Shown here in pieces: positions 21,130 through 62,239 of a DNA stretch of 64,000 bases (position 1 is its first letter; the number at the start of each line of letters is the position of its first letter). Made by a program: the position numbers and the translations under genes. The notes below the pieces were generated by a model, which saw only the letters and a program-made list of their open reading frames with translations, did no database searches and had not been told where the DNA came from. Source of the DNA: Cymodocea nodosa (Eukaryota > Streptophyta > Magnoliopsida > Alismatales > Cymodoceaceae); NCBI GenBank assembly GCA_036874045.1, contig JAZBRI010000010.1, forward strand, positions 1,322,001 to 1,386,000, given 5' to 3'.

Positions 21130-21179
21130 TAAGAAAGTGTCTACGTATATATAAAAAAAAAAAACTTATTTAAAACATA

Positions 21180-21425: not shown

Positions 21426-21475
21426 AGAAATTATTATTATATGTATTTTTATTAGATATAATTTTACGGGAAGTC

Positions 21476-30496: not shown

Positions 30497-30514
30497 TAGT
30501 GTCGTTGCCGAGGA
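30497..30514 (+). promoter_or_regulatory. Primer binding site after copy A 3' LTR, tRNA-Asp type
   Basis: TAGTGTCGTTGCCGAGGA matches the tRNA-Asp 3' complement at 14 of 18 bases. A second partial LTR-end/primer phrase (ACAAGTTCTCTGGTGTCGCC) follows at 30519. A primer site after a 3' LTR means another internal region was once attached here. Confidence 0.7.
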
Positions 30515-30554
30515 ACTAAACAAGTTCTCTGGTGTCGCCTAAAAACACCAAACA

Positions 30555-43316: not shown

Positions 43317-44664
43317 ATGAGCACATGGATTCGTTCTCCTAGCACTAAATGATCAGTAAGAACACCTATACAAGATTATTCAACATAGAGGCGTACTGAA
43401 ATATTTTCTAAATTAAACTTTAACGAAATCCTTAGAGGTGTAGCTAACCTTTCTTTAAAAGAGAACGAAGATATGATTGCTCCAGTAGAAAAACCATTAG
43501 GGGAAATTCTATATCCTGAATTAGTTGATGAACCTTCATGTATTTGATTGCCAAACTTTGAGGGAGATAGGTTTGAACTAAAATCTAATTATATTAGTCA
43601 ATTGCCACACTTTCATGGATTAGAAAGAGAAGATGCCTATTATTTCCTTAGAGAATTTAACGAAGTTTGTCAAATGATGAAAATGCCGAACATGAGTATT
43701 GATGCTATTAAACTTAGATATATCCCTTTTACTTTAAAAGACAGCTAAAAGATAGTTATATATTCTGTTGCTTGATTCAATTTCTGCATGGACTAAATTT
43801 TACTCTATTTTTTTAGAAAAATGTTATCCAACACATCAAATGATTAAAAAGAAAAAGGAAATATTAATGTGTAACCAAAAACAGGGAGAATCATTCTGGA
43901 AATATTTTGAAAGATTTAAAGATTTACTAACTCAATGTCCACATCATGCAATGAGTAAAGCACAATTAATAGGTATAATTTATGAAGGCATAGATGTTTC
44001 AACGAAATCTTTATTAGAATCTACTTGTTAGAATGGATTTTTAAAACTGTGTAGTGAAGAAGCATGAGCATATTTAGAAAACTTTGCAAAAAGAACTATA
44101 TAGTGAGAAAACTCAACTGAAGCTATTACAGATAAAAGAATATTACCAAGGGGAATGTATGAAATAGATTCAAGCACTATGCTTGAAGTTAAATTAATTG
44201 AATTAACAAAGAAAATAGAAGAGTTATCATTAAATCAAAAACTAGAAGAAAAGAATGCAAATGTTAATGACTTAGATATTATTTATGTTAGAAACCAGAA
44301 AAATAACTTTAGAAATTTTTATAACCCTAATTGGAGAAATTACCCGAACTTATCTTGGAGAAACAACAATTTCCAGGGAGGAGAAAATATAAATGACAAA
44401 AATATAAGTTATGAAGCATTAATTGAATAAGGATCTAGAATAGAGAAATTAGAAAAGATAATTCAACAATTAAACAATCGTCTAGATCTTGTATTTGGAA
44501 ATGCTGCCATTCAAAATCAAAATATGAATAGAAATATACCCCCTAGATAGAAGGAATCAATTGAAGTTAGACCTATTAGAGGATTGCTAATGCAAGCAGT
44601 ACCTAACCCTATCAACAAAACTGTTAATGAAATTGATACCTCCTATGGGAGGGAAGCTGAATGA
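43317..44664 (+). pseudogene. Copy E: gag capsid region
   Basis: ATG 43317 opens MSTWIRSPSTK, then a TGA where copy A has CAA (a former CGA would explain both). Blocks as in copy A: NFEGDRFELKSNYISQLPHF, YYFLREFNEVCQMMKMPNM, the Trp in SISAWTKF kept here (TAG in A and F), QGESFWKYFERFKDLLTQCP, ELTKKIEELSLNQ, and NFYNPNWRNYPNLSWRNNN. One frameshift near 43744 and stops near 44029, 44068 and 44102. TAG at 44548 and TGA at 44662 match the other copies. No zinc knuckle. Confidence 0.87.
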
Positions 44665-44769
44665 AGTAGTATAACTAAAGTAACTATGTATAATATAGGA
44701 AGTAGAAAAATATAAAAAGAAAAAAAAAGTAAGTTTAATTATAGTTAGTAATATCGTAGAGTTATTACT

Positions 44770-44803
44770 TAACTCAACGAACTTAGTTAAGTTCGTTGAG
44801 TTA
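44770..44803 (+). repeat. Perfect 34-bp inverted repeat between gag and F-box (copy E)
   Basis: Arms TAACTCAACGAACTTA and its exact reverse complement are separated by only GT. This is the longest perfect palindrome of the family that I can see, at the gag/F-box boundary. Copies A (25680) and F (57728) have decayed or shorter versions. Confidence 0.95.
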
Positions 44804-44889
44804 TGACCTAACTCCACGAGGGTAAGTAAGTAGTTATGTTAATTTTATCTCTATTAAATTTTTTTTTATGTTGTATAGAATCACAATAG

Positions 44890-45628
44890 ATGTAATTGAT
44901 GAAATTACCACTGGATGCACTAAGGGAAGTACTGAGTAACCTGTCAGCTAAAGAACTGTGCAGATTGTGTTGTGTATCGAAAAAAATTAAAGACTGTGTT
45001 AGAGAAAAATATTTTCATAGACTACAAGCTGCAAAAATGACTAAGATTAGAGATGGATTTTTATGGAAGTCATTTAATCGTAGTTCAATCAGCTATGAAT
45101 ATCTAAATATGGAAGAAAATGTTGGAATTCCACCCAATACATTAGAAGGAATAGATCATATTATGGGGATAGATAAGTGATTAATTATCTATAGAACCAA
45201 ACCAAGGTATGCAATTCTATTATCCGATATTTTGATTAGAAATCATATCACTAGAGAAGAATGGAATATAGGAAGGCCTAATAGATATTAAGTTCCAACT
45301 AAAAATTGTGGGTCGGCTTTAACATTTTCTGATAAAAATTCAACCATTTCTGAAAAATTATATTACTGGAGACCAACTGAAAATTGGGATGAAAATTTAT
45401 GCTTAAGTGTGTATAATTTTCTAAATAGATCTTGGACCAAAAATACTATGATATATCTAGGATAGAAAGCATTAATTAACAACATACATGTCATACTTGA
45501 TGGATATATATATCTAGTCATAGATATATTAGTTGCATTTAGATCTAATTTATATATAGTAAGCATAGATAGTTATGATGATGACTTTATAGAAATATTG
45601 TCTATACCGAGTGATATAGCTAAACCAC
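44890..45628 (+). pseudogene. Copy E: captured F-box gene, 3' truncated by LTR
   Basis: The ATG at 44890 is followed at once by TAA; the next in-frame ATG is 44899. F-box residues: LPLDALREVLSNLSAKELCRLCCVSKKIKDC. The middle (FLWKSFNRSSISYEYLN, GIPPNTLEGIDHIMG) and FBA-like part (YYWRPTENWDENLCL, with the Trp that is a stop in A and F) follow. The gene stops at 45628 after IAKP, where an LTR begins. About the last 40 percent is missing. A T-rich tract ending in TAG lies 11 bases before the ATG. Confidence 0.83.
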
Positions 45629-45974
45629 TATTTAGAATGAAAAAGTGCATAATATTAATAGTTAAATGATGGTTAATTGCATAATATTTAGCTTACCATA
45701 TGAGAATTAAGCCATTATGTTATAATTGCACTGTTATAAGCATTAATGAAGGAATCTGCATAATTTCAGGGAATTAATGTTAATTTAGTACATTTTTGAA
45801 CTATCGTTAAATTGCAAGCTGTGAAATTCTTAAGTATCTGAAATATCCTTTTATTCATAAAACTTATTAAGGACATGTGTTGTGATCTAAAAACCTGATT
45901 TAAGTGTGGTTTTATAATATTAAGCATGATCCATTTTATTTTCATATATTTATATCATGTACAAGTGAACAGTA

Positions 45975-46235
45975 ACAACTCGTTGAGTTAGTGTTCTTTT
46001 TGTTAAAAGATCGCGTGCCAACTCGTTGAGTTACAAGTTTAAGGTATAAAAAGATCACGTGAGAACTTGTTGAGTTAGCAAGTAAAAACTGTAAGTTATA
46101 TATCTGAACTCGTTAAGTTAGAATTATGCACGTGTTGAATTTAAACGCTTTATTATGTCACATGAGATGCACAAGTTTAACTCGTTAAGTTAGTATAATT
46201 GTATGCGTTGAGTTACATGAATATATACTAAGGTA
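45975..46235 (+). promoter_or_regulatory. U3 tandem cluster of AACTCGTTGAGTTA units and ACGTG motifs
   Basis: At least six AACTC-GTT-GAGTT or AACTCGTTAAGTTA units (5-base arms, 3-base loop), spaced 40 to 75 bases. Several are preceded by CACGTG or GCGTG (for example CACGTG at 46056-46061, TGCACGTGTTG near 46127). ACGTG is the core of plant G-box/ABRE sites, so stress-responsive control is plausible but inferred. The 3' LTR has the same cluster at 61105-61350. Confidence 0.6.
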
Positions 46236-46505
46236 ACACGTTATGTTAGCAGCTTATTTCTTTATTGTACGTGTTTTATAGTTAAATCAACAAAGTAAGT
46301 CCGTCGAGTTATCTGTAACTCCACGGACCATTTATTTTCTAATATGCCACTATAGCGGTTACAGAAACAAGACATTCGAAGGAAAACTACGATTGCACGT
46401 ATCACACAAGAATTCACTCGTGGAAGGAAGAAGAAATCACCATCGTTGATATGAATGAAGGAAATCCAACCGATCATCTAAGCAAAAGTAGTTACTACTA
46501 AGAAA

Positions 46506-46513
46506 TATAAAAG
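46506..46513 (+). promoter_or_regulatory. Copy F 5' LTR: TATA box
   Basis: TATAAAAG in the context AAGAAATATAAAAGAAAAGG, conserved in all LTR copies that retain this region. Confidence 0.65.
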
Positions 46514-47689
46514 AAAAGGAGAAAAGATGAAGAAAGTGTGTATGCAGAGGTGGAGGACCGTGCTAACTGCAAGCAACGTCGGAAGTTCCCTGAAGCTCCA
46601 CACAACATCACCACCATCACCATAATCACCAACCATCGGAGGTCTGTGAGGATACTTTCCTGATGTCGGGTCAATTTTGAGCCAAACACAGTGCCTAACA
46701 ACCATTGTGAGGAGTGATCGTGTCGCGGGAAGGGAAGCCATTTTCACCAATCACCGACTCATATCTCAGGAGATCGTAAAGCTTCTAGCCTTGGTTTCGG
46801 GTTGATGTTAGTATGTTGAAGAGGAGATCATCTTGCAATTCTAGACTTGCGATTCAATAGGGAGAGGAGACAGGATTGTAAGTGATTAAGTTTTCAATGG
46901 TGTAATCGTGTCGCATGTAGTGATGGAAGTATTTAATGTCGATAGAGATTTTTACATTTTACCTTTCACCCATTTTCATGAACATATCAAAACAAAAATA
47001 CCAAAAACAACTTATTTGTGTTTACATTTAGTATTTAAGTATTGTATTGTTTGTTTTGTATTGTGATTAATGTTATCATTGTCAGTATTGTGAATGTTTA
47101 TGTTTGTTTGATTCAGAAAATAGAAAATAGTTTTACAGTTTACTGAAATTGATTCGTTCCAGATATTTAAAGATTTTAATGGTTACTGTTTGAAATATCT
47201 AAATCTTAGTGTTGCTTAATGATAAATCTAATATTAACTAGCATTAAAGAGCTTAATTGATGTTATTTACAATCTGTGAAACTGCCCAATGGTTGGTTGG
47301 ATTCCTCTGTAAATAGCAGTATTTAATTGGAAAGATAGGCTCGTGGAGTTAACTTAAGTCTACGAGGTTAGTCTGTTGAGTTAGCCATAACTCCACAAAC
47401 TTAGTCCGTTGTGTTAACTGTAACTCAACAGAGTGCTTAACTGAACACATAAACTCTAATATAAAAATTAGGACAGTACACAATTCTTATTCAATCTTTG
47501 TGAGTTCGACTTGTACTTGCACACAAATACAATATACACTATGCACTTGCAGTTAAAATACAAATTGGAATTAATATCTAATTTGTGTGAAAGGTTGTTA
47601 GTTTACTTCTAAAGGTAATTATTGATATAAGCATAAAGACAAAGTAAACAAGTGTTTGATTTAATCTTTCACAACCAATACAAGTTTTC

Positions 47690-47707
47690 TTGCGCCATTA
47701 TTGGGGA
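47690..47707 (+). promoter_or_regulatory. Copy F: primer binding site, tRNA-Asp type
   Basis: TTGCGCCATTATTGGGGA follows the LTR end. Compared with the tRNA-Asp 3' complement it has four to five mismatches; GCGCC and GGGGA are kept. Copies D and A keep the GTTGCC part instead, so together they support the assignment. Confidence 0.7.
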
Positions 47708-47723
47708 TTGAGTAGCTAAGCAA

Positions 47724-47732
47724 TTGTAAGTA
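47724..47732 (+). promoter_or_regulatory. Copy F: splice-donor-like site in leader
   Basis: TT-GTAAGTA, 20 bases after the primer site and 63 bases before the pol ATG, fits the plant donor consensus. The collinear site in copy D is GTGAGT. No acceptor close by gives a normal-length intron, so a distant acceptor would be needed. Confidence 0.4.
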
Positions 47733-47788
47733 TTGTTTTGTTTTAATAGCAAGAGGAGTGTTGTGTGCTTTATTCTATAATTCAGAAT

Positions 47789-48840
47789 ATGACATATGCT
47801 TATGCTCAAAGATTTCTAAAACCTGTAGTAAGCATATGTGAATTCTACAATTTGGAAGGTCACGACATTTCTGATTGTTTGAAACTGAGACAATTGTAGA
47901 TGGTAAGATTACATGAACAACAAATGAATTATCTTCAATATAATAGATCTAAGTATGAGAATCCTATGGTTTACCCAACTAATGGTCAGCTTAGAATGTG
48001 TAATATGTTGAGAGATAAAGAAGTTTGGGATAAGTATGACAGATTGGAGCGTAGCTTAGAGCAAAACATGAACAAACTGGAACAATATATTTGTCAGCAA
48101 TAAGAAGTCAACCAATTAAACTATAAGGAAGCATATTCAAAACCTAAAATTGATATCATTTACGAAACTGAAAAAACCATAATGAAAATTGATCAAAAAT
48201 TGAATGCAATGAGATTAGATGATCTGGGAAGAAAACTAAAAGCATTAGATGAATATACAATGAAATTACAAGTTATGCAATAGGAAAACACAAATGAAAA
48301 CTTTAATGTTACAGATCTGCATAATTTGCAAGACATACAAACAAAAGAAAATACTAATGCAATAGAATTTAATGAATGCAATTTAAAACTAAAAACAGTT
48401 GAAGATCATTATCACGAAAATGATATACAAGAACATCAAGAAAGTAACGAAAATCTGGAAGATGTATGTATAACATTAAGATCTGGAACTGATATACCAC
48501 CAAGAATTCAAAAAGAAAATAATGTGAAGGTGGATAAGAGAAAAAATCAAAATGATAATGAAAATGTAATAACTGAAAACTTAGAAATCAATAAAGAAAA
48601 ATCTGAATCTGAAAATGAGACTAAAAATGACCAAACAAATCAAATGAAAGAGAAAGAATCTTTTAAAAAACAAGAAAAAATTAGAAAATCTTTTGAAAAA
48701 GTAAAAGTTAACATTCCTTTGTTAGACTTATTGCAAAAAATGCCAACTTATGCTAAATTTCTTAAGGATTAGTGTACTAAGAAAAGAGAGTGAAAAGTTT
48801 TAAGGAAAGTCTTTTTATCTGAGCAAAGTAGTTCCCTATT
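47789..48840 (+). pseudogene. Copy F: zinc-knuckle (NC) and linker at the start of the pol frame
   Basis: ATG 47789 opens MTYAYAQRFLKPVVS then ICEFYNLEGHDISDC, a CCHC knuckle whose second Cys is Tyr (copy D keeps Cys). A TAG at 47897 is directly followed by in-frame ATG 47900. The linker has charged coiled-coil stretches (LRDKEVWDKYDRLERSLEQ, LDDLGRKLKALDEYTMKL). It then has EDVCITLRSGTDIPP and VNIPLLDLLQKMPTYAKFLKD, both standard just before Athila protease. Stops near 48102, 48283, 48770 and 48791. The frame continues unbroken in register to 50401, so knuckle, protease and RT were one polyprotein. There is no capsid domain before it. Confidence 0.82.
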
Positions 48841-49426
48841 TCTACCACAAATTCCTAAAAAGTTATCTGATCTTGGAATTCTGGTTATATCATACACCAT
48901 AGGAAATATCATTCTAGAAAAAACCTTAATAGACCTAGGTGCAGGTATAAATGTTATGCTAAAAGATATATTTGCATCCTTAGGATTAGAAGGCTTAATC
49001 CCTACTAGGACTATTATTCAATTAGCTGATAGAAGTATAAGATACCCTAGAGGAAAAATAGAGGATGTCTTAATTAAAATCAAAAGCTTCATATATCTTG
49101 TTGATATTGTAATTTTGGATTCCCAACAAATTAAGCATAAAAACAATGATACATCTTTAATTTTGGGAAGACCATTTTTAGCAACATCAGGGGCTGTTAT
49201 TAATTGTAAAATTGGAGTAATGAAGTTAACATATGGTAATGAGGATACTCAATTAAACATTTTCAAACTAGAAAAGTTTAAGGAGTTAGAAATGTCCTTA
49301 CATACTATAGACTTTTTAGAGGATGAAGGAGATATGTTAGATGATGCGATTCAAGAAGAATTAAATAGGCAACTCAATTCTGAAAATTTAGAAGAAAGTG
49401 AAAGCATAAATATAGAAGGAGATTAG
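48841..49426 (+). pseudogene. Copy F: aspartic protease (Athila lineage)
   Basis: PKKLSDLGILVISYTIGN, then LIDLGAGINVM at 48926-48958 (active site D-L-G-A with Ser changed to Gly at the next place), ASLGLEGLIPTRTIIQLADRS-like sequence, PRGKIEDVLIKI, SLILGRPFLATSGAVI and an acidic tail. It would cut the polyprotein. Of all domains in copy F this has the longest clean run: 156 codons open from 48956 to a TAG at 49424. Confidence 0.87.
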
Positions 49427-50640
49427 GAAGAAATTAATTTAGAAAATGATGATGTTTAGTTAGGAGCTTTAGCTTTTGATGGGCAATAGTTAGAATTAAA
49501 ACCTTTATCTCCTGAATTAACCTATATATTTCTAGAAGAAAAACGAACATGTCCAATCATTATTGCTTCAGATTTAAAAGAGGATCAAATTGCTAAATTA
49601 AAAGATGTAGTAAAAACTTATAAAGAAGCAATAGTATGGACTATGACGGATATAAAAGGGTTAAGTGCAACTTTATGTTGTCACCACATATATTTAAAAG
49701 AGAATGCTAAACCAGTTCAAATTCCTGAGAGGAGATTAAATCCAAATCTTAAAGAAGTAGTTAGGAAGGAAATAGTGAAATGGTTAGATAATGACATAAT
49801 TTATCTGATTTCTGATAGCTCATGGGTTAGTCTAATCCATGTAGTTCCTAAGAAATCAGGATTAATAGTTATTAGTAATGAAAGTCAAGACTTGATACCT
49901 ACTAGAATTCAATCATGTTGGAGTGTGTGTATAGACTATAGAAAGCTGAATGCTGTGACTAGGAAAGATCATTTTCCCTTACATTTCATAGATCAAATGT
50001 TAGAAAAATTAGCAGGGCAAGACTATTTTTGTTTCTTAGACGGGTATTCAGGATATAACCAAGTCCCAATGGCATTAGAAGATCAAGAGAAAATAACTTT
50101 CACATGTCCTAATGGAACTTATGCTTTTAAGAGAATGCCATTCGGATTGTGCAATGCACTAGCCACCTTTCAAAGGTGTATACAAGGCATATTCACTAGA
50201 ATGACTAAAGATTTTTTAGAAACTTTTATGGATGATTTTACTCTTTATGGAACTTCATATGAAGTGTGTTTAAACAATTTGGACCAAGTATTAAAACGCT
50301 GTGTAGAAAAAAGTCTGGTTCTAAATTGGGCGAAATGTCACTTCATGGTTAATCAAGGAATAGTCTTAGGACATGTTGTTTCAAAAAAAGGGTTGAAGTA
50401 GATAAAGCTAAAATAGAAGTAATTTCTAATCTAGTAAATCAGTAAGAGATATTAGATCATTTCTAGGACATGTTGGATTTTATACAAGATTTATTGAAGA
50501 TTTTAGCAAAATAGCTAGACCTTTAACTAATCTATTAAAAGATGTCCCATTCAACTTTGATAAAAATTGCAAATAAGCATTTTTCAAACTTAAAACTAGC
50601 TTAATTTCAACTCCTATAATACAAGCACCTGATTGGAACC
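49427..50640 (+). pseudogene. Copy F: reverse transcriptase (Athila lineage)
   Basis: It keeps TMTDIKGLSATLC, RRLNPNLKEVVRKEIVKWLD, SSWVSLIHVVPKK, CIDYRKLNAVTRKDHFPL, QDYFCFLDGYSGYNQV, ITFTCPNGTYAFKRMPFGL and ETFMDDFTLYG (catalytic FMDD at about 50225), then LVLNWAKCHFM. A stop-free run spans 49643-50401 (252 codons), the longest ORF in the window. A one-base gain near 50390 and a seven-base loss near 50440 (compare copy B at 32395-32415) then disrupt the connection domain. Stops lie at 49456-49490 upstream. Confidence 0.92.
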
Positions 50641-51099
50641 ATCCATTTGAATTAATGTGTGATGCATTTGATTTTGCTGTAGGAGTAGTGCTGGGACAAA
50701 AGATAGAAAAATCTCCTAGAGTTATTGATTATGCAAGCAAAACTTTAAATGATGCTCAAGTTAATTACACAACTACTGAAAAAGAGCTGTTAGCTATAGT
50801 GTTTGCCTTAGAAAAGTTTAGATCATATCTGATTGGAGCTAAAGTGATAGTATACACGGATCATTTAGCTTTAAAACACTTAATAGCAAAGAAAGAGACT
50901 AAACCTAGATTGATCCGAAGGATATTATTATTACAAGAATTTGATCTAGAAATTAAAGATAAAAAAGGTTGTGTGAATATAGTAGCAGATCATTTATCAA
51001 GATTACAAGTAGACAAATCAAATATTGAAATTAAGGATAATTTTCTTGATGAACAATTGATGACCATCAACACAATGTCTTGGTATGTAGACAGTTAAT
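50641..51099 (+). pseudogene. Copy F: RNase H (Athila lineage)
   Basis: Open for 147 codons from 50655. [15 protein letters not shown] has the first Asp, [16 protein letters not shown] the Glu, [11 protein letters not shown] the second Asp, and [11 protein letters not shown] the last Asp. It degrades the RNA strand of the RNA-DNA hybrid. Not in frame with RT because of the shifts at 50390-50440. Otherwise intact, and better preserved than copy B. Confidence 0.9.
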
Positions 51100-52368
51100 T
51101 ACTTAGTTACTAGTTTAACATCTAAGGAGTGGAATAGACAGGATAAGAAATTATTCTTTTCAAGAGTAAAATATTACTATTGGGAAGACCCATACTTATT
51201 TAAGAAATGTCCTGATCTGGTTTTAAGGAGATGTGTTCTAGAAACTGAATATCAGAGCATATTGTCTTTCTACCATGACCAAACATGTGGAGGGCATTTT
51301 TGTTTAAGGAAAACTACTGCTAAAATTCTACAATGTGAATTTTATTGGCCAACACTATTTAAAGATGCTCATAAATATTGCTTAAATTACTTAAGATGTC
51401 AACAAATAGGAAGAATATCAAAGAGGAATATGCTGCCTCTTAATCCTATTGTTGAGGTTGAAATCTTTGATGTATAGGGAATAGATTTTATGGGTCCATT
51501 TCCTATGTCTAATCAATTTAATTATATATTGTTAGGGGTGGATTATGTATCTAAATGGATAAAAGCTATTCCTATAAAAACTAATGACAACAAAGTGGTA
51601 ATACATTTTATAAGAACTAATATAATTGCCAGATTTGGAATACCTAAAACTATTATCAATGATAGAGGAACTCATTTCTGTAATAGAAGTTTTGAAGCCT
51701 TAATGAAGAAATATGGAGTAAATCACAAAATTGCAACATCATATCATCTGCAAACAAGTGGATAAGTAGAAAGTGCAAACAAACAAATTAAGTTAATCTT
51801 AGAAAAAGTAGTAAATCCTACTAGAATAGATTGATAGATGCACTTTGGGGCTTATAGAACTGCTTATAAGACAAGCTTAGGTATGTCACCTTTTAGGCTA
51901 GTATATGGAAAAAGTTGTCATTTACTAGCTGAAATTGAACATAAAGGTTATTGGGCATTAAAAACTATGAACACTAATTTAAATCAAGCTACTGAAAATA
52001 GAAAAATACAATTGATTGAATTAAAAGAATTTAGGAATGAAGCTTATTCGAAAATTGTAAGAGAAAAAGAGAAAATGAAGTTCTAGCATGGTAGGAAAAT
52101 TATTCTAAAAACCTTTGAAATAGGACAAGAAGTATATCTTTACATGACTAGACTCCATAACCATCTAGGAAAATTAAGATCTAGATGGGCAGGACCTTAC
52201 ATAGTTCGAAATATTTATCTCTATGGAGTTATTGAAATTGAAAATCCTAAAAATCAGAATATATTTAAAGTAAATGGACAAAGACTTTGACCTATTTTGA
52301 AAATATCAAAAAGTTCTTTTGGAGTTATAGAAGAAGTAAGAGTAGAGGACTACTCGAGCTTTATTTAG
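51100..52368 (+). pseudogene. Copy F: integrase (Athila lineage)
   Basis: Frame differs from RNase H. The zinc region is FYHDQTCGGHF..KTTAKILQCEFYWP and YLRCQQIGRISKRN. The core is GIDFMGPFPMSNQFNYILLGVDYVSKW (Asp), IINDRGTHFCNRSFEAL (Asp), and SG-stop-VESANKQIK where TAA replaces Gln before the catalytic Glu. Then RLVYGKSCHLLAEIEHKGYW and the C-terminal LYMTRLHNHLGKLRSRWAGPYIV. Stops at 51475 (Trp in copies A and D), 51763, 51834 (in a small rearrangement) and 52084. Ends TAG 52366-52368. Confidence 0.9.
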
Positions 52369-52417
52369 TAAGGAAATTTCTAAAAATATATAATAAAAAA
52401 ACCTTATTTAAACATAG

Positions 52418-52730
52418 TCATGGTTCAATCGAAAGGAATTATCGATTTTACTGAACATATTTTAAAAGAAAAAAAATCATTGCGGTTCAACCGATAGGAT
52501 CCATTGGTCTGATCGAAACATAAAAAAATCTATATATTATATTTAGTTTAATGTTGGTGTTACTGAAGTATAGTATAGGTTCAACCGACACAACAAAAAA
52601 AAAGAAAATATTTAATTTCGGTTCAACCAAGGAATATAATGGTTTGATCGAAAAATTTTAAAATGTTGGAAAATTAAGAATCGGTTAGACCAAAAATTCT
52701 TTAGTCTTGACCGAAGTAAAAAGTATTATT
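52418..52730 (+). repeat. Copy F: CGGTT-N-AACCG palindrome array
   Basis: Units include TGGTTCAATCGA, ATCGATTTTACTGA, GCGGTTCAACCGATA, TTGGTCTGATCGA, GGTTCAACCGAC, TCGGTTCAACCAA, TGGTTTGATCGA, ATCGGTTAGACCAA and CTTGACCGAAG. About nine in 310 bases, in AT filler. Same place as in copies A, B and D. Confidence 0.87.
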
Positions 52731-52767
52731 ATATGTATTTTTTATTAGATATAACTTTACGTAAAGT

Positions 52768-52915
52768 TTGTTGAGTTACACTTAACTCAACGAACTTACT
52801 CCGTTGAGTCTAGGATAAGTCAACGAATTTATCCCGTTGAGTTAACTATAACTCAACGGAGTACTATAGTTAAGTCTATTGACTTAGTCCGTGGAGTTAA
52901 CCGTAATTCCACGGA
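52768..52915 (+). repeat. Copy F: AACTCAACG inverted-repeat array before the transposon-protein ORF
   Basis: Seven half-units: TTGAGTTACACTTAACTCAA (palindrome with 4 central mismatches), CTCCGTTGAG, CCCGTTGAGTTAACTATAAC then TCAACGGAG (strong hairpin), and CCGTGGAGTTAACCGTAATT then CCACGG (strong hairpin). Stems reach 14 to 15 bases. Confidence 0.9.
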
Positions 52916-53074
52916 TGAGAGAGTGAGAGTTTGTGTAGGAAATGACCCGATTACTCGCCTAAACTTAGGGCTTATTTATACTTAACTTAGGGTTTGGGGG
53001 CATTATCCGTAGAATCATTTAGAACTTAGACCAGTAGAGATCAGAGCGATTCCATTCCGTTGCGTAACTCCACG
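52916..53074 (+). other. Copy F: leader of the transposon-protein ORF
   Basis: Noncoding, with the GGGTTTGGGGGCATTATCCG phrase conserved before this ORF in all copies. No ATG precedes 53075 in a frame that stays open. Confidence 0.5.
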
Positions 53075-55293
53075 ATGGCAAAGATGACACCAGAATTCTT
53101 AGAGGCCGTAGTTGACACTTCAGAATTTCTTAAAGATTTAGAGGAATGGCACACAAGGCAAAAAATCAGGAATACGACGAGGGAAAAAGAGCTTCAAAAG
53201 ATAGAATCTGACCTTTTCTACTAGAGGAAAGTGTTAGTTGATTTAGGCATAAAAATACCTCAAATGATGGAAACTAGAATCAAAGTTGCTACGAAAGTTG
53301 CTGTAAGCAGAGAGAGAAGAATCAGGCTAAATAACGAAGTTGCCCTAGAATTGATCCAACGTAAGTCCCGACTTTGGTTTAAAAGGCGCATAGGTAGACA
53401 GGCTTAGAGGGTAATCTAGGAGCAACAAAGGAAAGAAAATGAAGAACAAGCAACTAAAGAACAAGAGGAGCCAACTGTTGAAAGACTTGTCCTTGAGGAA
53501 CAGCAGCCAAGACCCTTAGTTCCACCACTAAGGCCGTTAGAAAGAGCAGCAATTTTGGGGCCTTCTACGGAGGAAGAAATAAGAGAATTTCAAGAATTGA
53601 TTCAAATTGGAAAAGACCAAGGAGAACTAGAAGAGTTGGCAGTAGCTATAACACATCTGGTGTTTGATGCACAATGCAAAAAGAGGGTTGTAGAAAAGTT
53701 GAAAGCCCAATATAAAATCAAAGTTGAACAGCATCAAAAAGCCACTACCAGACCTATTGTAAGAGGAACTGAAGCTGTCCTTCGAGACCAGCAATTATAG
53801 AAAAAGTTAAACAGGAAGAGTCAGTACCTACGGCTCAAATGCCTATAGAGCCTATTTTTGTAGATTTAATCTCAGAAGAAGAAGAGGAAGACTAGGCACA
53901 ATTAATTAGAAAACAGAAAAGAAAAGAGATAGTGCCTGAACATCAAGAAGAGATTAAATTTGATATGCAAATAGCAATAGGGCCTGTAGAGCCGATTTTT
54001 GTAAACCTGCTATCCGATTCTGAGGAGAAGGAGCAGCAGCAGTAGTAAGAGCAAAGAAGAGAAGAAAAATAGGCTGAATCTAATCTGTAGCCTATACAAG
54101 CAGAAGAAATAGAAATTAGGGCAAAAGCTGATTTGCTCGTAACTCCATCCCAATTTGTCACAAAATCAAAAAGAACAGTGACACTGTAGATTGGTAGTCA
54201 AGAGAAAGAAGAAAAAGAAGAAATTGAACAAGAAGTTGAACAAGTACATATGGAAAGAGAAACTCTTCAGCAAATTTTGGAAAGAATTCGAGACAGAGTG
54301 GAGAGTTCTACCAGCTCACCACCATAGACAAAAGCAGAAGCAAAAATGCAAGAATCTTCGGAGCATTTTTAGGCAATTCAAGTTCAGCACATGGAAGAGG
54401 AAGTTCAAGAACAAACCCTTTTAGAGCAACAAATTTACATTCTTGTCCCGACTGAAGCAACAATTTTAAATGAAGTACATTTTTGGAGTCAGGAAGCATA
54501 TAATAAATACCAAGAGATTAGAGGTTATGATATCATATACAGTAGACTAGTAAATTGGGACGGGATGCAAGAAATTAAAGATTTATTTGAGTTCCAAGGT
54601 CTACTATAGTTTATTTCTCAAGAAAGAGGGTATATAGTATATGAGAATCTAGTGCCCTACTTTTATGTAAATTTAAGATAAGGAGAAAGAGGATTAATTT
54701 CCAATGTGGAGCAAGATGATGTATAGATAACACTAGAGCTTCTCCACAACATTTTAGGATTGAAAAATGAAGGGAAAGAAATTTTGGAAAGCACAACTGT
54801 AGTCGAGTGGACAGAACACATCATAAAGGAGTGTTTAGCCATCAATCTTGGTGTGCCATTGTTAAATAGATTGAAGAATTTAAATGGTAAAGCACACATG
54901 ATAGCTAACATTTTAATTAAGAATGTCTACCAACGATAAGACCATGATATAGAACTGAGTCAATTTGTCAAATGGGTCACATATGCAGTTGTGAATAGAA
55001 TTTCGATAAATTGGTCTGTAGTTTTTATCTTCAAGCTGAAAACAGTAAAGAAGAAATTATTTTATGGAGATCTGATTCCACTGCTGATGGTGGACAGTAT
55101 TGATTTCATGAAATGGGCATCCAAAAGGATAAGATCAATAACCATTTCAGTGAAAGAATATAGAAATTATGCTGCTGCAGAGATTGCTGAACCTTTTGGA
55201 GGAATTATAGGAGCTGTAGAAAGGATAAACCAATTAGAGCAACAATTAGAAAAACTCCAGAAGGAAGTAGATGAACTTAGGAGAAAAGAGTAA
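53075..55293 (+). pseudogene. Copy F: 'putative plant transposon protein' ORF, full length
   Basis: ATG 53075 opens MAKMTPEFLEAVVDTSEFLKD. One frame runs to about 53776, where loss of one G shifts it. The second frame runs to TAA 55291. Total length is about 740 codons. Order: N-terminal basic helix region; Pro-rich REEQQPRPLVPPLRPL-like segment; STEEEIREFQELIQI; LVFDAQCKKRVVEKLKAQYK; EPIFVDLIS and EPIFVNLLS repeats with Glu-rich tracts; long acidic middle; EVHFWSQEAYNKYQEIRGY (54470); ENLVPYFYVNLR; KAHMIANILIKNVY; QFVKWVTYAVV; KKLFYGDLIPLLMV; and a C-terminal heptad coiled coil. The second half resembles the plant transposon-protein domain found with Athila/Tat elements. At least eight stops. 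Confidence 0.78.
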
Positions 55294-56274
55294 ATTGTAT
55301 TGTTCGTCTACTTGTATATATTTGTATGAAAAATATCTAATTGACTGTAATGTAAACTATTCATATAAATGAATGTATGTTTTTTCAAATGTGTTTGCAT
55401 TTATGTTTGAGAATGATATAATGGATGAACTATCTTGAATATTAAATAGTTGTTTGAACAAGATGCAAGATTGTTTAAAAGATATACAAATTTGCTGAAT
55501 GATAGGATTAAATGCAAGATAACTGGTTAATGCTAGAAAATAGCTGCATGCTGCAAAGTAAAATGTAAATTCTGCATAACATGAAGTGAACTGCAAGTTA
55601 AATATTTATATAATGTTCAGATTTAAATGAGTTTTAATTAGAACATTTCATTAATGACATGTATTTAACTTTATTTAAGTTGACAAAATGTAAGAGAAAA
55701 AAAAAATATAGAAGTTAATATGAGAAGTTTTAGAAATTTGCCAAGTGTTAACTCAACAAAGTAAGTTCGTTGAGTTAACCTTAACTCCACAAGGTCAATA
55801 ATATAATATAAGGTCACTTCGTTGAGTTAACTGTAACTCAACGAAGTTAGTCCGTGGAGTTAGCAGTAGTAACCGAAGCTAGTCTGTTGAGTTAACTATA
55901 ACTCAATGAGGTTAGTTCATGGATTAAGCTAAACGATTATTCTTTTAGCCATGAACAAAACTTCTTGGGTTTAGTGGTTATTGAAATTTAGAATTAGAAG
56001 TGAAACACGTGCCCATAAAAATAGGAACCACACTACACGTTACAAGACACGTTCTTGCAATGAGATTCATTTACTTTATGGATGTACATTATAAATATAG
56101 AATAACATGTTATTTACGAGTTACTAGCACTTTTGAAAGAAAAGAAAATTTGTTGGGGAACTGGAAGGAGAAGCAGTTGATTCAACTTCATTCGTCAACA
56201 ACTATTTACTAAATATAAAGCTTCAGACTGGTATGTAATTAATCTTTTGCTATTTTACTTTATGTTAAGAGTTT
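55294..56274 (+). other. Copy F: spacer before gag, with AACTCAACG array
   Basis: No coding sequence. Positions 55745-55935 hold eight or more AACTCAACG / CGTTGAGTT half-units, including CTTCGTTGAGTTAACTGTAA then CTCAACGAAG (stem of about 14). The downstream 300 bases, with CCATAAAAATAGGAACC and CATTATAAATATAGAA near 56089, are conserved in copies A and E. They may hold a promoter or leader for gag. Confidence 0.7.
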
Positions 56275-57623
56275 ATGAGCACATGGATTCGTTCTCCTAG
56301 CACTAAATGATTAGTAAGAACACCTACACATGATTATTCAACACAGAGACGTACTGAAATATTTTCTGAATTGGACTTTAACGAAATCCTTAAGGGTATA
56401 GTTAACCTTTCTTTAAAAGAGAACGAAGATATGGCTGCTCTAGTAGAGAAACCATTAGGGGAAATTCTGTATCCTGAATTAGTTGATGAACCTTCATGTA
56501 TTCGAATGCCAAACTTTGAAGGAGATAGGTTTGAATTGAAATCTAATTATATCAGCCAATTGCCACAGTTTCATGGATTAGAAAGAGATGATGCCTATTA
56601 TTTCCTTAGAGAATTTAACGAAGTTTGTCAAATGATGAAAATGCCAAACATGAGTATAGATGCTATTAAACTTAGATATATTCCTTTTGCTTTGAAAGAC
56701 ACAGCTAAGAGATGGTTATATACTTTGTTGCCTAATTCAATTTTTGCATAGACTAAATTTTGCTCCGTTTTTTTGGAAAAATATTATCCAGCGCATAAAA
56801 TGATTAAAAAGAAAAAAGAAATATTAATGTGTAGCCAAAAACAGGGAGAATCATTCTGGAAATATTTTGAAAGATTTAAAGATTTATTGACTCAGTGTCC
56901 ACATCATGCAATGAGTAAAGTACAATTAATAGGTATAATTTATGAAGGCATAGATGTTTCAACTAAATCTTTATTAGAATCTACTTGTTAGAATGGATTT
57001 TTAAAACTATGTAGTGAAGAAGCATTGGCATACTTAGAAAACTTTGCAAAAAGAACTACACATTGGGAAAACTCGGCTGAAGCTATTACAAATAAAAGAA
57101 TATTGCCAAGGGAATGCTTGAAATAGATTCAAGCACTATGCTTGAATTTAAATTAACTGAATTAACAAAGAAAATAGAAGAGTTATCATTAAATCAAAAG
57201 TTAGCAGAAAAGAATGCAAATGTTAATGATCTAGATATTGTTTATGCTAGAAACCAAAAAGATAACTTTGGAAATTCTTATAACCCTAATTGGAGAAATC
57301 ACCCGAATCTATCTTGGAGAAACAACAATTTCCAAGGAGGAGAAAATATAAATGACAAAAATATAAGTTATGAAGCTTTAATTGAATAAGGATCTAGAAT
57401 AGAGAAATTAGAAAAGATAATCTAACAATTAAACAATCATCTAGATCTTGTATTTGGAAATGTTGCAATTCAAAATCAAAATATAAATAGAAATATACCC
57501 CTTAGATAGAAGGAATCAATGGAAGTTAGACTTATTGGAGGATTACCAATGCAAGTAGTACCTAACCCTGTCAATAGAACTGTTAATGAAATTGATACCT
57601 CCTCTGGGAGGGTAGCTGAATGA
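56275..57623 (+). pseudogene. Copy F: gag capsid region, downstream of pol
   Basis: ATG 56275 opens MSTWIRSPSTK, then TGA (CAA in copy A), and continues RTPTHDYSTQRRTEIFSEL. Capsid blocks as in A and E: NFEGDRFELKSNYISQLPQF, YYFLREFNEVCQMMKMPNM, LRYIPFALKDTAKRWLYTL, QGESFWKYFERFKDLLTQCP, and LCSEEALAYLENFAKRT. After loss of one G near 57110 come ELTKKIEELSLNQKLAEKN and NSYNPNWRNHPNLSWRNNN. TAG at 56749 replaces Trp and TAG at 56989 replaces Gln. TAG 57507 and TGA 57621 match copies A and E. No CCHC motif in any copy of this ORF. Confidence 0.9.
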
Positions 57624-57843
57624 AACAGTATAATTGAAGTAACTATGTATAATATAATACGTAGAAAAATATAAAAAGAAAAAAATATGTAAGTTTAATT
57701 ATAGTTAGTAGTATCGTAGAGTTATTACTTAACTCAACGAACTTAGTCTGTTGAGTTATGACCTAACTCTACGAGGGTGTGAAGTAGCTATGTTAATTTT
57801 GTCTTTGTTAAATTTTTGTTTATGTTATACAGAATCACAACAG
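57624..57843 (+). repeat. Copy F: gag/F-box spacer with palindrome and splice-acceptor-like tract
   Basis: AACTCAACGAACTTAG then TCTGTTGAGTTATG at 57730-57760 forms a hairpin with one mismatch. TTAAATTTTTGTTTATGTTATACAG (split here as a T-rich tract ending ACAG at 57832) lies 11 bases before the F-box ATG. Confidence 0.7.
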
Positions 57844-58990
57844 ATGGAATTGATGAAATTACCACTAGATGCACTGAGGGAAGTATTGAGTAACCTGTCA
57901 GCTAAAGATCTGTGCAGATTGTGTTGTGTATTAAAGGAAATTAAGGATTGTGTAAGAGAAAAATATTTTCATGGAGTACAAGCTGCAAAAATGACTAAGA
58001 TTAGAGATGGATTTTTATGAAAGTCATTTAATCGTAGACCAATCAGCTATGAATATCTGAATATAGAAGAAACTATTGGAATTCCACCCAATACGTTAGA
58101 AGGAATATATCATATTATGGGAATAGATGAATGATTAATTATATACAGAACCAAACCAAGGTATGCAATTCTGTTACCCATATTTTAATTAGGAATCCTA
58201 TCACAAGAGAAGAATGGAATATAGGAAGGCCTAATAGATATGAAGTACCAATTGAAAATTGTAGGTCAGCTTTAATATTTTCTGATAAAAATTCGACAAT
58301 TCCTGAAAAATTATATTATTGGAGACCAACTAGAAATTGAGATGAAGATTTATGCTTAAGTGTGTATAATTTTCTAAATAGATCTTGGACTGAAAATACT
58401 ATGATATATCTAGGAGAGAAAGCATTAATTAACAGCATACGTGTCATACTTGATGGATATATATATCTAGTCACAGATATATTAGTTGCATTTAGATCTG
58501 ATTTATACATAGTAAGCATAGATAGTTATGATGATGATTTTATAAAAATATTACCTATACCGAGTGAAATAGCTAAACCACCATCTGCAGAATATGATAA
58601 AATTCAATTAGGAATGTGGTATAATGAATATGATGATCCTACTTTATGTCTGATCAGATGGTGGGATGAATTGAGGAAATTTCAAATATGGATTATAAAA
58701 GACCTAAATGAATGGAAGTGGAAAGAGGAATATATTGAAATAGATGTAGAATTAGAAACAACTACACTATCTTGGAACAGAAGAGGATCCCTTTCTACAT
58801 TTCATTTCATTTCATTAACGAAAATACACTTATATTTAGTATTGATAACATACTACAAGTTTACAAGCTAAAAAGAAAAACGATCTGCATTAAAATAGAA
58901 TTAATAGCAAGAAGAATTATGCCTAAAAAGTTTGCTTGGACTGACACGTTTATTTCATTTGTTACTACTTTTCAATCATGTTCTTAAACT
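57844..58990 (+). pseudogene. Copy F: captured F-box protein gene
   Basis: ATG 57844 is followed by F-box LPLDALREVLSNLSAKDLCRLCCVLKEIKDC, then GIPPNTLEGIYHIMG, RNPITREEWNIGRPNRYE, LYYWRPTRN, SVYNFLNRSW, DGYIYLVTDILVAFRSDLYIV-like sequence, PPSAEYDKIQLGMWYNEYDD and LRKFQIWIIKDLNEWKW. The 169-codon stretch 58362-58871 is open. Stops at 58018 and 58339 replace Trp. A frameshift lies near 58180, a small duplication (CATTT repeat) near 58806, and a one-base loss near 58973 removes the hydrophobic tail frame seen in copy A. It is collinear with copies A and E, so it was captured before these copies spread. Confidence 0.85.
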
Positions 58991-60744
58991 GTGATTCTAT
59001 ACGTTTAATGTTGTGTGTATTTTGCATTTATTTTTAGAAAAAAAAAGAAGAGAAAATGAAGAAAAATTTTAGTTTTAGTTTTATTTTATAAAAAAAGAAA
59101 AAAAACAAAATATCAATCCAGTTTATTGGTATCTGTTCTAGGAAACCAACTGGTTTGCTTGTGAGCCACCAAAGGTATAGGAGTTTGAGTTCCACACAAG
59201 ACACTGATTTAACAAGTTATGTTTTGTTGTTAAATGTTATTTTGTTATATATTCTACTATTATTCATGAATGAAAAGTTTTTCAGAATAAAAAATCAGAA
59301 GATATTGAAGGAGATACAAAAAGACAAGGTATATAATTAATTACTTATCCTGAATTTACATTTAAACTCAATTTGTTGAATGAGGTGCTAAGTCAATGAA
59401 ACAAAATTCATGCCTACTACATTTACTGTAAATTCTTTTACATTGAGGACAATGCAAAATGTCGGTATGGAGGGGAGGTAATTAAAGTAACAACCATGTA
59501 ATTTTGTTAATTAAATGAATCAGAAGGATACTACAAAAGTTCTATGGAAATTGAAATTTTTTTTATGAATTTGCTGTAACTATCCGATAATTTAAATTGT
59601 AAAATTTTTAAGGACTGTAACTGCTTGAATGTTATATTTAGAATGTCATATAAGATGCTACAGAATTTTACTATTCATACAAATCTAGATATAGTATCTT
59701 ATGTTTTTGTTGAATTTTATGAGTTTAACAGTTTCACGATTTTAAAAAGAAATTAGAATGCTTAACTGAAACTTAGTAAATTATCTAAAATCTTGAAAGA
59801 GCTTAAATGTTGATTTTTGGATTAAATGAAGTACATATGATCAAGGATACATTTAATTTGATTGATTAAACTTGTAGAATAATTTGTGTAGATCTTATTA
59901 AACTACAGAAAAAGTATAAGCTTATTGATAGGGATTCATATTTTTAGTAAATAATAGAAGCAGGACTATATAAGATTTGTGTTTTATTACATCTGTATTA
60001 ATGAAATATGTACATATACTGTGTTGAAAGGAAAAGAAAAAAAAGAGAGAAAAACTTTGAGAATTTATTGACTTGTTTGATCACAAGCCTTTTGTACTTG
60101 AGTAGATAGGTATGTAAGGATTGTTGACCTGAAAAATGATTCTTTAAATCTGGCAACCTAAGATCCTGATCAGATTCGGGACTGTTGACTGAAAACTCGA
60201 TACATGGGTATACTAGAAAGCTCTTGTATGATTCAAGTTTGTCAAATTAACTTTTAAAGTACAAATATGCATATACTGTTCTGAAAAGATACTTTTGAAT
60301 CGAGTATATTTTATGTTATCTAAAATTGCTGAAATATGAATCTAGAATAGACTTTTGAAGTTGTTTATTTGAGATACAAATCTTTATTTTACTTGTCTTA
60401 ATCATATTGAATGGGATTGTGTTTTGATTCGTATATAGTTGAAATTTATTCTGGAAATCATATTGGAAAATTCAAGATGACAAATGCTGAAAAGAAGAAA
60501 AATGATAATATAATTAACACCTATGTGATGCTGATATATTTTGTATGTAATTTACATATATTCTAAATATATTTGCAGGTTCAAGAGGAGAAAACAAAGT
60601 TAAAATAGATTACTAAAACATACAAAATATCTATATAGTAATCTAATTTATTATTCTGAAGAAAAATGAAGTGAAAAATTAATTCTAGCATTTTAGAAAG
60701 TCCAACTAGTTAGATCTTAGTTTGCTAAGGGACTAGCAAAATTT
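58991..60744 (+). other. Copy F: 3' noncoding region with hairpin
   Basis: A/T-rich. CATTGAGGACAATG hairpin at 59441-59454 and purine tract TATGGAGGGGAGG at 59465-59477. A weak AACTCA / TTGTTGAATGAG pair near 59365. The rest matches 27380-28640 of copy A with small indels, including a 40-base loss near 60290. No ORF beyond chance. Confidence 0.7.
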
Positions 60745-60757
60745 AAGTATGGGGAAG
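60745..60757 (+). promoter_or_regulatory. Copy F: polypurine tract
   Basis: AAGTATGGGGAAG directly before TGTTTAG of the 3' LTR, following the GCTAAGGGACTAGC phrase. Confidence 0.85.
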
Positions 60758-62239
60758 TGTTTAGAATGAAAAAGTGCATAATATTAACGGTTAAATGATG
60801 GTTAATTGCAAAATATTTAGCTTATCATATGAGAATTAAGCCATTATGTTATAATTGCACTATTATAAGCATTAATGAAGGAATTTGCATAATTTCAGGG
60901 AATTAATGTTAATTTAGTACATTTCTGAATTGTCGGTAATTTGCAATCTATGAAATTCTTAAGTATTTGAAATATCCTTTTAGTCCTAAAACTTATTAAG
61001 GACATGTGTTGTGATTTGAAAACCTGATTTAAGTGTGGTTTTATAATATTAAGCATGATCCATTTTATTTGCATATATTTATATCATGTACAAGTGAATA
61101 GTAACAACTCGTTGAGTTAGTGTTCTTTTGTTAAAAGATCACGTGCCAACTCGTTGAGTTACAGGTTTAAGGTATAAAAAGATCACGTGAGAACTCGTTG
61201 AGTTAGCGAGTGAAAACCGTAAGTTATATATCTGAACTCGTTAAGTTAGAATTATAAACGTGTTGAATTTAAACGCTTTATTATGTAACGTGAGATGCAC
61301 AAGTTTAACTCGTTACGTTAGTATAATTGTACGCATTGAGTTACATGAATACACACTAAGGTAATGCATTATGTTAGCAGTTTATTTCTTTATTACACAT
61401 GTTTTATAGTTAAATCAACAAAGTAAGTCCGTTGAGTTATCTATAACTCTACAGACCATTTATTTTCTAATATGCCACTATAGCGGTTATAGAAACAGGA
61501 CATTCAAAGGAAAACCACGATTGCACGTATCATGCAGGAATTCACTCATGGAAGGAAGAAGAAATCACCACCGTTGATATGAATGAAGGAAATCCAACCG
61601 ATCATCTAAGCTGAAGCAGTTACTACTAAGAAATATAAAAGAAAAGGAGAAAAGATGAAGAAAGTGTGTGTGTGCAGAGGTGGAGGACCATGCTAAATGT
61701 AGGCAGCGTCGGAAGTTCCTTAAAGCTCCACACCAACATCACCACCATCACCATAATCACCAACCATCGGAGGTCTATGAGGATACTTTCCTAATGTCGG
61801 GTCGATTCTGAGCCAAACACGATGCCTGACAACCATTGTGAGGAGTGATCGCGTTGCAGGAAGGGAAGCCATTTTCACCAAGCACCGACTCATATCTCAA
61901 GAGATCATAAAACTTCTAGCCTTGGTTTCGGGTTGATGCTAGTATGCTGAAGAGGAGATTATCTTGCAATTCTGGACTCGCAATTCTATAGGGAGAGGAG
62001 ACAGGATTGTAAGTGATTAAGTTTTCAATGGTGTAATTGCGTCGCATGTAGTGACGAAAGTATTTACTGTTGATAGAGATTTTTACATTTCACCTTTCAC
62101 TCATTTTCATGAACATATCAAAACAAAAATATCAAAAACAACAACTTATCTATGTTTACATTTAGTATTTAAGTGTTGTATTGTTTGTTTTGTATTGTGA
62201 TTAATGTTATCATTGTTAGTATTGTGAATGTTTATGTTT
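60758..62239 (+). mobile_element. Copy F: 3' LTR, truncated
   Basis: Starts TGTTTAGAATGAAAAAGTGC. It shares the subfamily indels of the 5' LTR, has the U3 AACTCGTTGAGTTA cluster at 61105-61350 and TATAAAAG at 61634-61641. It ends at about 62239 after ATTGTGAATGTTTATGTTTT, where sequence of the F-box 3' noncoding type begins. About 580 bases of U5 are missing. Confidence 0.85.

Follow-up and report, generated by a model that had tools for sequence, protein, structure and literature searches.

The window analysed here is a stretch of 64,000 nucleotides of the Cymodocea nodosa genome (375 Mb), taken from the forward strand of contig JAZBRI010000010.1 (positions 1,322,001-1,386,000). It contains a retrotransposon copy, copy F, in which a capsid-type gag lies behind pol, and whose features follow one another as listed:

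45629..47682 (end approximate), +, 5' LTR, from the LTR-LTR match, its end placed by comparison with copies K and J and with a minus-strand LTR at 63196-63994
47690..47707, +, decayed PBS-like site, from the sequence and comparison with K and J
47789..47896, +, knuckle-like segment at the head of the pol frame, one motif Cys lost, ending in TAG
47900..48283, +, pol linker, 81% identical to copy D across 67 residues
48284..48769, +, pre-protease segment, matching the end of the conventional frame P0005 (E 2e-11)
48794..49423, +, aspartic protease (Asp_protease_2, E 0.011, below the Pfam cut-off)
49490..50398, +, reverse transcriptase (RT; PF00078, E 5e-26)
50577..51095, +, RNase H (PF17917, E 3e-34)
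51091..52287, +, integrase (PF17921, E 7e-11)
52769..52899, +, palindromic repeat array in the pol-ORF2 gap
53030..55293, +, ORF2, an extra frame with no Pfam family over the cut-off and with a selection signal
55749..55908, +, palindromic repeat array in the ORF2-gag gap
56311..57623, +, capsid gag without knuckle, probable ATG near 56431
57715..57773, +, palindromic repeat array in the gag-F-box gap
57817..58871, +, F-box gene with F-box-associated-like C terminus (PF00646, E 1e-7)
60747..60757, +, polypurine tract (PPT)
60758..62239, +, 3' LTR, truncated, 6.8% divergent from the 5' LTR

By their coordinates, the knuckle, linker, protease and RT pieces lie in one common frame. The order and shared frame described for this region in the initial annotation are therefore present, but the knuckle is not intact, having lost one Cys and being followed by an in-frame TAG; the capsid gag lacking a knuckle was correctly placed about 4 kb after integrase. 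The 3' LTR is cut at 62239, so that copy F lacks its own target duplication. Its 5' LTR opens with TA, and those of other copies with TG.

Parts of the same arrangement are found in copies A, D and E of the window:

18976..30554, +, copy A, a bounded insertion within the LTR of copy D (TG at 18976, CA at 30554), comprising part of the 5' LTR, integrase (20029-21048), ORF2 (21740-23270), gag (24269-25600), F-box gene (25758-26811) and 3' LTR (from about 28651)
17708..17797, -, copy D knuckle, an exact CX2CX4HX4C, after an LTR and a PBS-like site
17240..17686, -, copy D linker frame, with integrase (16107-17288, -) directly next
43353..45628, +, copy E gag and F-box gene, interrupted by copy F

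Copy A, whose front half is deleted, is flanked by the target duplication TGTGG/TGTGA (four of five bases match) and has the order integrase-ORF2-gag-F-box-LTR in common with F. Its capsid ORF is recognised by the Pfam profile Retrotrans_gag (E 1e-12), a check proposed in the initial annotation; taken by themselves, the N-terminal parts of gag in A and F gave no Pfam match. The F-box gene of copy A matches PF00646 (E 2e-9) and, below the cut-off, FBA_1 (E 0.017). Copy D does show the LTR, primer site and knuckle previously ascribed to it, and has the succession PBS-knuckle-linker in common with F; protease, RT and RNase H are absent between its linker and integrase, the core of the latter being recognised below the Pfam cut-off (E 9e-6). 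Within the window, read in six frames, the copy D knuckle is the sole exact CX2CX4HX4C, and the TAG after the knuckle, common to F and D, is absent from L027 and L037 elsewhere in the genome. Gag precedes the F-box gene in both A and E, as had been noted, but the PPT attributed to E does not adjoin, since this copy ends where F starts.

Copies bounded on both sides were identified elsewhere in the genome. Copy K is an insertion of 16.2 kb, flanked on each side by a perfectly matching 5-bp target duplication (GTCTC), and contains, in this order, knuckle, part of protease, RT, RNase H, integrase, ORF2, gag and F-box gene. It has two LTRs (95.9% identical over 1514 bases), PBS, PPT and target duplication, the features by which LTR retrotransposons are recognised, and the domain order claimed for copy F. 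In copy J the LTRs are 96.0% identical over 473 bases and 93.5% over a further 246, and in both K and J the PBS is located 7 nt past the LTR end; an apparent PBS inside the 3' LTRs was accounted for by the true LTR end visible in copy K. A copy of a second family (L019/L039) has a PBS before its knuckle-pol frame and a 3' LTR behind gag, its LTRs being 93.9% alike across 1422 bases.

We considered 20 of the 21 top-scoring gag matches in the same genome, a sample of best scorers and not a random one, which were assigned by inspection to three families. In all 20 of these loci gag is located 3' of integrase, on the same strand, as claimed from the window, and no copy with its own gag 5' of its own pol was found among them. 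In L022, a 66-codon family 1 capsid fragment is present about 2.8 kb 5' of the family 3 knuckle, and was taken as a remnant of a neighbouring element from another family. In families 2 and 3 the capsid match starts only about 0.7-0.8 kb past the integrase core. All 150 scored matches of the family 1 gag, including the window copy, have at least 87% identity. The conventional order is known from P0005 and, for the linker-to-protease part, from P0007 (Olea); in nine of the 20 loci P0005 maps as two pieces onto both ends of the element.

The initial annotation had described a split gag, with the knuckle heading pol and the capsid behind it. A split is not supported: in family 2 the rear gag has its own knuckle in four of five loci (L014, L020, L025 and L026), so that the gag was relocated as a whole, the pol knuckle being additional. 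The gags of families 1 and 3 have no knuckle where this stretch was read. At the head of pol, an exact CX2CX4HX4C is present in 10 of the 20 loci, in all three families, and also in copy K, and open frames extend from the knuckle into RT over 678 codons (L020) and 741 codons (L023). Pfam zinc-knuckle profiles match this segment below the cut-off (L027, E 0.0053, the best; L013, E 0.18), with no match in L014 and L022, and in L026 the knuckle is 2.1 kb upstream of the pre-protease segment. Fewer amino-acid changes than expected by chance were observed for the knuckle-linker region in 7 of 18 comparisons (P<0.05), which share copies and are non-independent, with no signal in family 2 (0/6). When profiles of the pol linker and of the conventional post-knuckle region were compared, the match was not significant (E 0.056, 11 columns), which leaves it unproven that the linker is homologous to gag.

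Among 11 loci scanned for the PBS TGGCGCCGTTGCCGGGGA, which we take to be of the tRNA-Asp type, as in Athila, the site is exact in L014 and L025, has one change in L013, L019 and L027, two in L020 and three in L034, and was not found in L026, L033, L035 and L036. The elements presumably resemble Athila, Calypso and Diaspora in PBS type, and do so in the RT-RNase H-integrase order, the pre-protease segment, a gag of the Retrotrans_gag type and an extra frame behind pol. They are unlike them in that gag is behind integrase and pol has its own knuckle, whereas in those elements gag is ahead of pol in one frame; Diaspora, in the available part of its description, has CX2CX4HX4C in gag and a single gag-pol ORF, like the Athila and Calypso consensus elements (PMC1142308). 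The order protease-RT-RNase H-integrase is that of Ty3/gypsy elements, but the REXdb survey, in the sections at hand, defines these by GAG ahead of PROT (PMC6317226), the reverse of what is seen in the 20 loci. Tat elements are described in the same sections as carrying an extra aRH domain (PMC6317226), not seen here: in copy F no second (archaeal-type) RNase H was reported, the integrase zinc domain coming directly after RNase H. In Ogre (Tat), moreover, gag stays first, unlike in these elements. No chromodomain was matched by Pfam in copy F (51838-52083 and 52087-52287), the copies being decayed. The Athila ORF-1 domain PF03078 gave no match in the ORF2 pieces tried; it is not required for Athila, being reported from 16% of Athila elements in those sections (PMC6317226). 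An Athila-type element, as first annotated, is our best reading, based on exclusion, PBS and gag similarity.

Judging from the sequences, the plan would best be read as LTR, PBS, pol (knuckle, linker, protease, RT, RNase H, integrase), optional ORF2, gag, optional F-box gene, PPT and LTR. We propose, with a probability of about three in four, that these are Athila-type Ty3/gypsy elements with permuted gene order, in which gag and Pol would be separately expressed and Pol would be packaged via RNA. The order may have originated from a tandem or template-switch product, in which most of the first gag was lost, leaving one knuckle before pol, and the last pol was lost, leaving a whole gag behind integrase. 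It would preclude the usual Gag-Pol fusion: the full-length RNA would serve for translation of Pol, and gag would come from a separate RNA, spliced or internally started. The knuckle on Pol may bind genomic RNA, through which Pol would be packaged, similarly to foamy-virus Pol; this would explain why the pol knuckle is kept in three families and the gag knuckle lost in two. In foamy viruses gag comes first and Pol is made from spliced RNA, whereas here pol precedes gag and the product made separately would be gag. The likeness would thus be one of working mode, with no common membership claimed; foamy viruses (Spumaretrovirinae) are described, in the text available to us, as making Pol without Gag fusion and packaging it through genomic RNA (PMC7828637). 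BAGY-2 and other env-like elements also have a frame behind integrase and ahead of the 3' LTR, which may need a spliced RNA according to the accessible part of one account (PMC7264820); in those elements gag comes first and the rear position is taken by an env-like frame, whereas here it is taken by gag. Acceptor-like sites were observed 5' of gag in copies A and F and in those loci of families 2 and 3 that were tried, with none in L016, L027 and L030, and no conserved or consistent splice donor was found in the leaders examined. Only tentatively do we extend this to a long-lived, abundant plant lineage without Gag-Pol fusion, with whole gag behind pol, knuckle-recruited Pol, a Gag:Pol ratio set by separate RNAs and, in family 1, arrays marking gene starts.

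The same anatomy could be served in family 1 by an internal promoter within the palindromic arrays, rather than by a spliced RNA, a possibility that we regard as doubtful. The motif CGTTGAGTTA (at most one mismatch) has 117 occurrences in the window, where 3.4 would be expected; in copy F it is found in the LTR and at each of the three junctions between genes, with 17 matches in 3892 internal non-coding bases versus one in 9182 coding bases, and arrays are present at the equivalent junctions of other family 1 loci. Nevertheless, some matches fall in coding stretches (three in copy B and one in the gag of copy E), and factor binding by the arrays is purely putative. No array is present in the six loci inspected from families 2 and 3, each of which has one match at most; the arrays, seen in family 1 only, are thus not the general route for gag expression. 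The strong hairpin folding of the arrays follows from their being palindromic. Paired changes were no commoner than in shuffles (7 versus 7.4 and 4 versus 5.1), the arms showing no covariation, and an RNA-structure function was therefore set aside.

An improbable reading is that the rear gag is accessory or a duplicate undergoing decay, working Gag being supplied in trans by conventionally ordered Athila elements of the same genome, and the elements being non-autonomous. The conventional order does exist elsewhere (P0005, P0007). Gag-less parasite elements have a precedent, BARE-2 being reportedly one of them (cited in PMC11963269), and in the window copies stop codons interrupt gag and pol. 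In 10 of 17 comparisons, however, the rear gag has fewer amino-acid changes than expected by chance (P<=0.05; these share copies and are non-independent), including all four within family 3, and a gag frame of 454 codons is open in copy J (L027); the 20 fetched top-scoring gag matches are, moreover, all of the rear type. No selection signal was obtained for gag in family 2 (0/3), in the family 1 comparison of J with L028 (104 differences) or in the N-terminal extension of gag, nor for integrase (0/3).

Retroelement-dense regions are prone to misassembly, and gag could in principle belong to the next element of a tandem array, the boundary having been missed. Both LTRs were read for a minority of the 20 loci and no 3' LTR has yet been seen in family 3; in families 1 (K and J) and 2 (L019/L039), however, gag is flanked by both LTRs of a single element. 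In the printed family 2 and 3 loci only about 0.35-0.4 kb separates the integrase end from the probable gag ATG, and the 20 loci are spread over ten contigs, which makes such an artefact very unlikely. That copy F is a one-time nested insertion or recombination of two elements, as its densely nested surroundings and truncated 3' LTR might suggest, is refuted by copy K and the 20 loci, the integrase-gag order recurring in A, K, J and two further families.

In the part of the literature consulted (PMC7264820), LTR retrotransposons are described as sharing a plan in which gag comes ahead of pol, and we found no description of gag behind pol in titles and abstract openings of the open-licence literature. 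An abundant lineage with reversed order would mean that this plan can be broken by elements still able to spread, and makes Pol packaging without Gag fusion a testable question in plants. The REXdb survey of plants, as far as its text was available, removed every element with unexpected domain order as likely mispredicted (PMC6317226), so that reference sets and gag-based classification may lack permuted lineages. Searches for gag, RNase H and the array motif in viral contigs, for the array motif in GTDB genomes and for protein homologues of the pol linker gave no matches. Protein homologue searches retrieved two proteins with gag and six, itself included, with P0002.

Nested AT-rich LTR elements make up the window, and the gene order claimed for copy F in the initial annotation was borne out: the capsid gag lies behind integrase and a knuckle-like segment heads pol. 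Copy F reads 5' LTR, primer site, knuckle-like segment, linker, pre-protease segment, protease, RT, RNase H and integrase, followed by ORF2 (an extra frame between integrase and gag), gag, an F-box gene, polypurine tract (PPT) and a truncated 3' LTR.

Features of copy F and of the copies compared with it (window coordinates unless a contig, C5, is named)
45629-62239, + strand: copy F, whole element
47690: primer site of copy F, decayed
47789: knuckle-like segment of copy F
56311-57623: capsid gag of copy F
57817-58871 (F), 25758-26811 (A), 44861-45627 (E): F-box gene between gag and PPT
45981-46325, 47342-47430, 52769-52899, 55749-55908, 57715-57773: CGTTGAGTTA/TAACTCAACG arrays of copy F
C5:4627798-4644008: copy K, elsewhere in the same genome, with a complete LTR pair (95.9% alike across 1514 bases)

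The window evidence also argues against copy F being a chimera, since the succession integrase-ORF2-gag-F-box-LTR is common to copies A and F, and LTR-primer binding site (PBS)-knuckle-linker to copies D and F. Copy A, whose front half is deleted, is a bounded insertion within the LTR of copy D (TG at 18976, CA at 30554, duplication TGTGG/TGTGA). Its gag was identified as Retrotrans_gag (E 1e-12), a domain also found in the gags of L027, L014 and L013, three of the loci fetched from the same genome (E 2e-21 to 8e-23).

In this genome (374.6 Mb, 28 contigs), 150 of 4640 candidate gag matches were scored, and 20 of the 21 best scorers were taken in list order (the eleventh omitted), each with roughly 8 kb of upstream and 2 kb of downstream sequence. 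Among these best gag scorers, all 20 of 20 loci have the integrase core first and gag after it on one strand; in L016 and L028 just the end of that core is there. We sorted the 20 loci, by inspection of similarity and layout, into three families: family 1, that of the window (L024, L027, L028, L030 and L031), family 2 (L014, L019, L020, L025 and L026) and family 3 (the remaining ten, L017 and L021 assigned from the alignment pattern alone). Within the fetched stretches of family 1, the F-box gene is present in four of five (absent from that of L030), as is ORF2 (absent from that of L027); the 150 scored matches to family 1 gag, out of 6263 candidates and counting the window copy, all have at least 87% identity. 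Families 2 and 3 share 53-73% identity with the window family in RT and 30-61% in gag pieces, and their capsid match starts 0.7-0.8 kb downstream of the integrase core. In L022, a 66-codon stretch of family 1 capsid (72-269; 86% like that of copy A) precedes the family 3 element and is probably a remnant of a neighbouring element.

In copies of families 1 and 2, the same order is found between paired LTRs. Copy K comprises PBS, knuckle, linker, part of protease, RT, RNase H and integrase, then two ORF2 pieces, gag, F-box, PPT and 3' LTR; it interrupts the integrase gene of a second element from this group (L016 ~6927, L038 ~216; G000:C5), with a perfect target duplication, GTCTC, at both flanks. 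In copy J, also outside the window (spanning L035, L027 and L036), a PBS and a frame covering knuckle and linker are accompanied by a gag frame open over 454 codons; the LTR parts are 96.0% alike over 473 bases and 93.5% over 246, the 3' LTR being traced only partly. In family 2, the copy in L019 and L039 has behind gag a 3' LTR 93.9% like its 5' LTR over 1422 bases; for L014, the 4.7 kb retrieved downstream of gag showed no 3' LTR. One family 1 element holds a solo LTR of family 2 in its ORF2 region (L028, 3152-5745).

An exact CX2CX4HX4C motif heads the pol frame in ten of the 20 loci (L013, L014, L018, L019, L020, L022, L023, L025, L026 and L027), as well as in copy K; in the other ten the pol head is missing, decayed or beyond the fetched stretch, and the matches of the same scan in L015 and L029 fall outside the pol-head pattern. 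The frame is open from the knuckle into RT over 678 codons in L020 and 741 in L023; in L026 the knuckle precedes the pre-protease segment by 2.1 kb. The knuckle call is based on motif and position, since Pfam zinc-knuckle matches at the pol head were under the cut-off (L027, E 0.0053; L013, E 0.18) or absent (L014 and L022).

As judged from its sequence, gag is moved whole behind integrase. Family 2 gag retains its own knuckle in four of five loci (L014, L020, L025 and L026), placed in L014 before the NPNWRNHPNFSW motif. In family 1 (L027, L030 and copy K) and family 3 (L013, L015, L016, L018, L022, L029 and L032) the coiled segment of the gags read directly adjoins NPNWRNHPNFSW, with no knuckle between them, and copy A gag lacks about 33 residues, knuckle included, relative to the fragment P0001. 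P0005, a comparison frame of conventional order, holds the post-knuckle motif, linker, LRSG and pre-protease segment in 251 continuous residues; its first part matches the rear-placed gag and its last part the pol head in nine of 20 loci (L018, L019, L022, L023, L025, L027, L030, L031 and L032), the pieces meeting at residues 116-119, the gag-pol border, in family 3 loci L018, L022, L023 and L032. In none of the 20 loci were the two parts seen adjoining each other.

REXdb defines Ty3/gypsy as GAG-PROT-RT-RH-INT and discarded all elements with unexpected domain order as likely incorrectly predicted (PMC6317226). The gag-first order, a defining feature of the parent class, is absent from the 20 loci, and no description of gag behind pol was found in the open-licence literature, to which the search was confined. 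We would file them as a putative variant of the Athila type, not previously described in that literature.

With pol before gag, a ribosome would be unable to produce the usual Gag-Pol, so that Pol would have to reach particles by another packaging route; readthrough from pol into gag may be an alternative. We infer that Pol could be recruited via RNA through the knuckle at its head, which fits the retention of that knuckle in three families and the loss of the gag knuckle in two. Foamy virus Pol is described as packaged through RNA (PMC7828637), as proposed here.

Expression of gag may be driven in family 1 by internal promoters, as suggested by arrays of the palindromes CGTTGAGTTA/TAACTCAACG, which lie in the LTR and also between pol and ORF2, between ORF2 and gag, and between gag and the F-box gene. 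CGTTGAGTTA has 117 matches in the window (3.4 expected), and in copy F 17 in 3892 internal non-coding bases versus one in 9182 coding bases; coding matches elsewhere are three in copy B RT-RH-IN and one in copy E gag. The arrays occupy the same junctions in copies A, B, D and E, and CGTTGAGTTA also occurs at gene junctions of other family 1 loci. Since the six loci examined from families 2 and 3 showed no arrays (at most one CGTTGAGTTA match each), gag expression in general would need another route, such as a spliced gag RNA; splice acceptor-like sites were present in most stretches tried, with no consistent donors seen in them.

Selection was assessed by randomly re-dealing substitutions among the same bases (2000 shuffles) and comparing observed with expected amino-acid changes, in comparisons that share copies and are not independent. 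Gag gave a signal in 10 of 17 comparisons: F-A (obs/exp 0.80, P 0.002), F-E (0.76, 0 of 2000 shuffles), J against A, F, E and L024 (0.77-0.85, P ≤0.0015) and four of four in family 3 (0.57-0.73, P ≤0.033). It was not significant for J against K, L028, L030 and L031, nor in the three family 2 comparisons, nor for the gag N-terminal extension alone (two comparisons). The knuckle-linker gave P<0.05 in 4/6 (family 1), 0/6 (family 2) and 3/6 (family 3) comparisons, integrase a signal in 0/3, RNase H in 1/1, ORF2 in 4/4 and F-box in 3/3. Young pairs are expected to show little selection, because their differences are mostly post-insertion; the LTRs differ by 6.8% in copy F and likewise in copy A.

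The captured F-box gene is retained across family 1 copies. Some plant viruses have F-box proteins, and by analogy with these the element protein might counter host silencing.

A TAG right before an ATG, between knuckle and linker, is common to copies D and F (F: 47897-47899) and absent from L027 and L037. In copy E (41891-42937) the repeat array before gag directly follows a shortened LTR, pol and ORF2 being gone. Copy B (32156-37795) is an older relative with RT-RH-IN-ORF2; its similarity to copy F stops just before gag and in the ORF2 stretch amounts to only 67-72% in DNA. Further RT fragments of related elements lie at window 11877-12440 (62% like copy F in protein) and at L011 176-1085 (83-84%).
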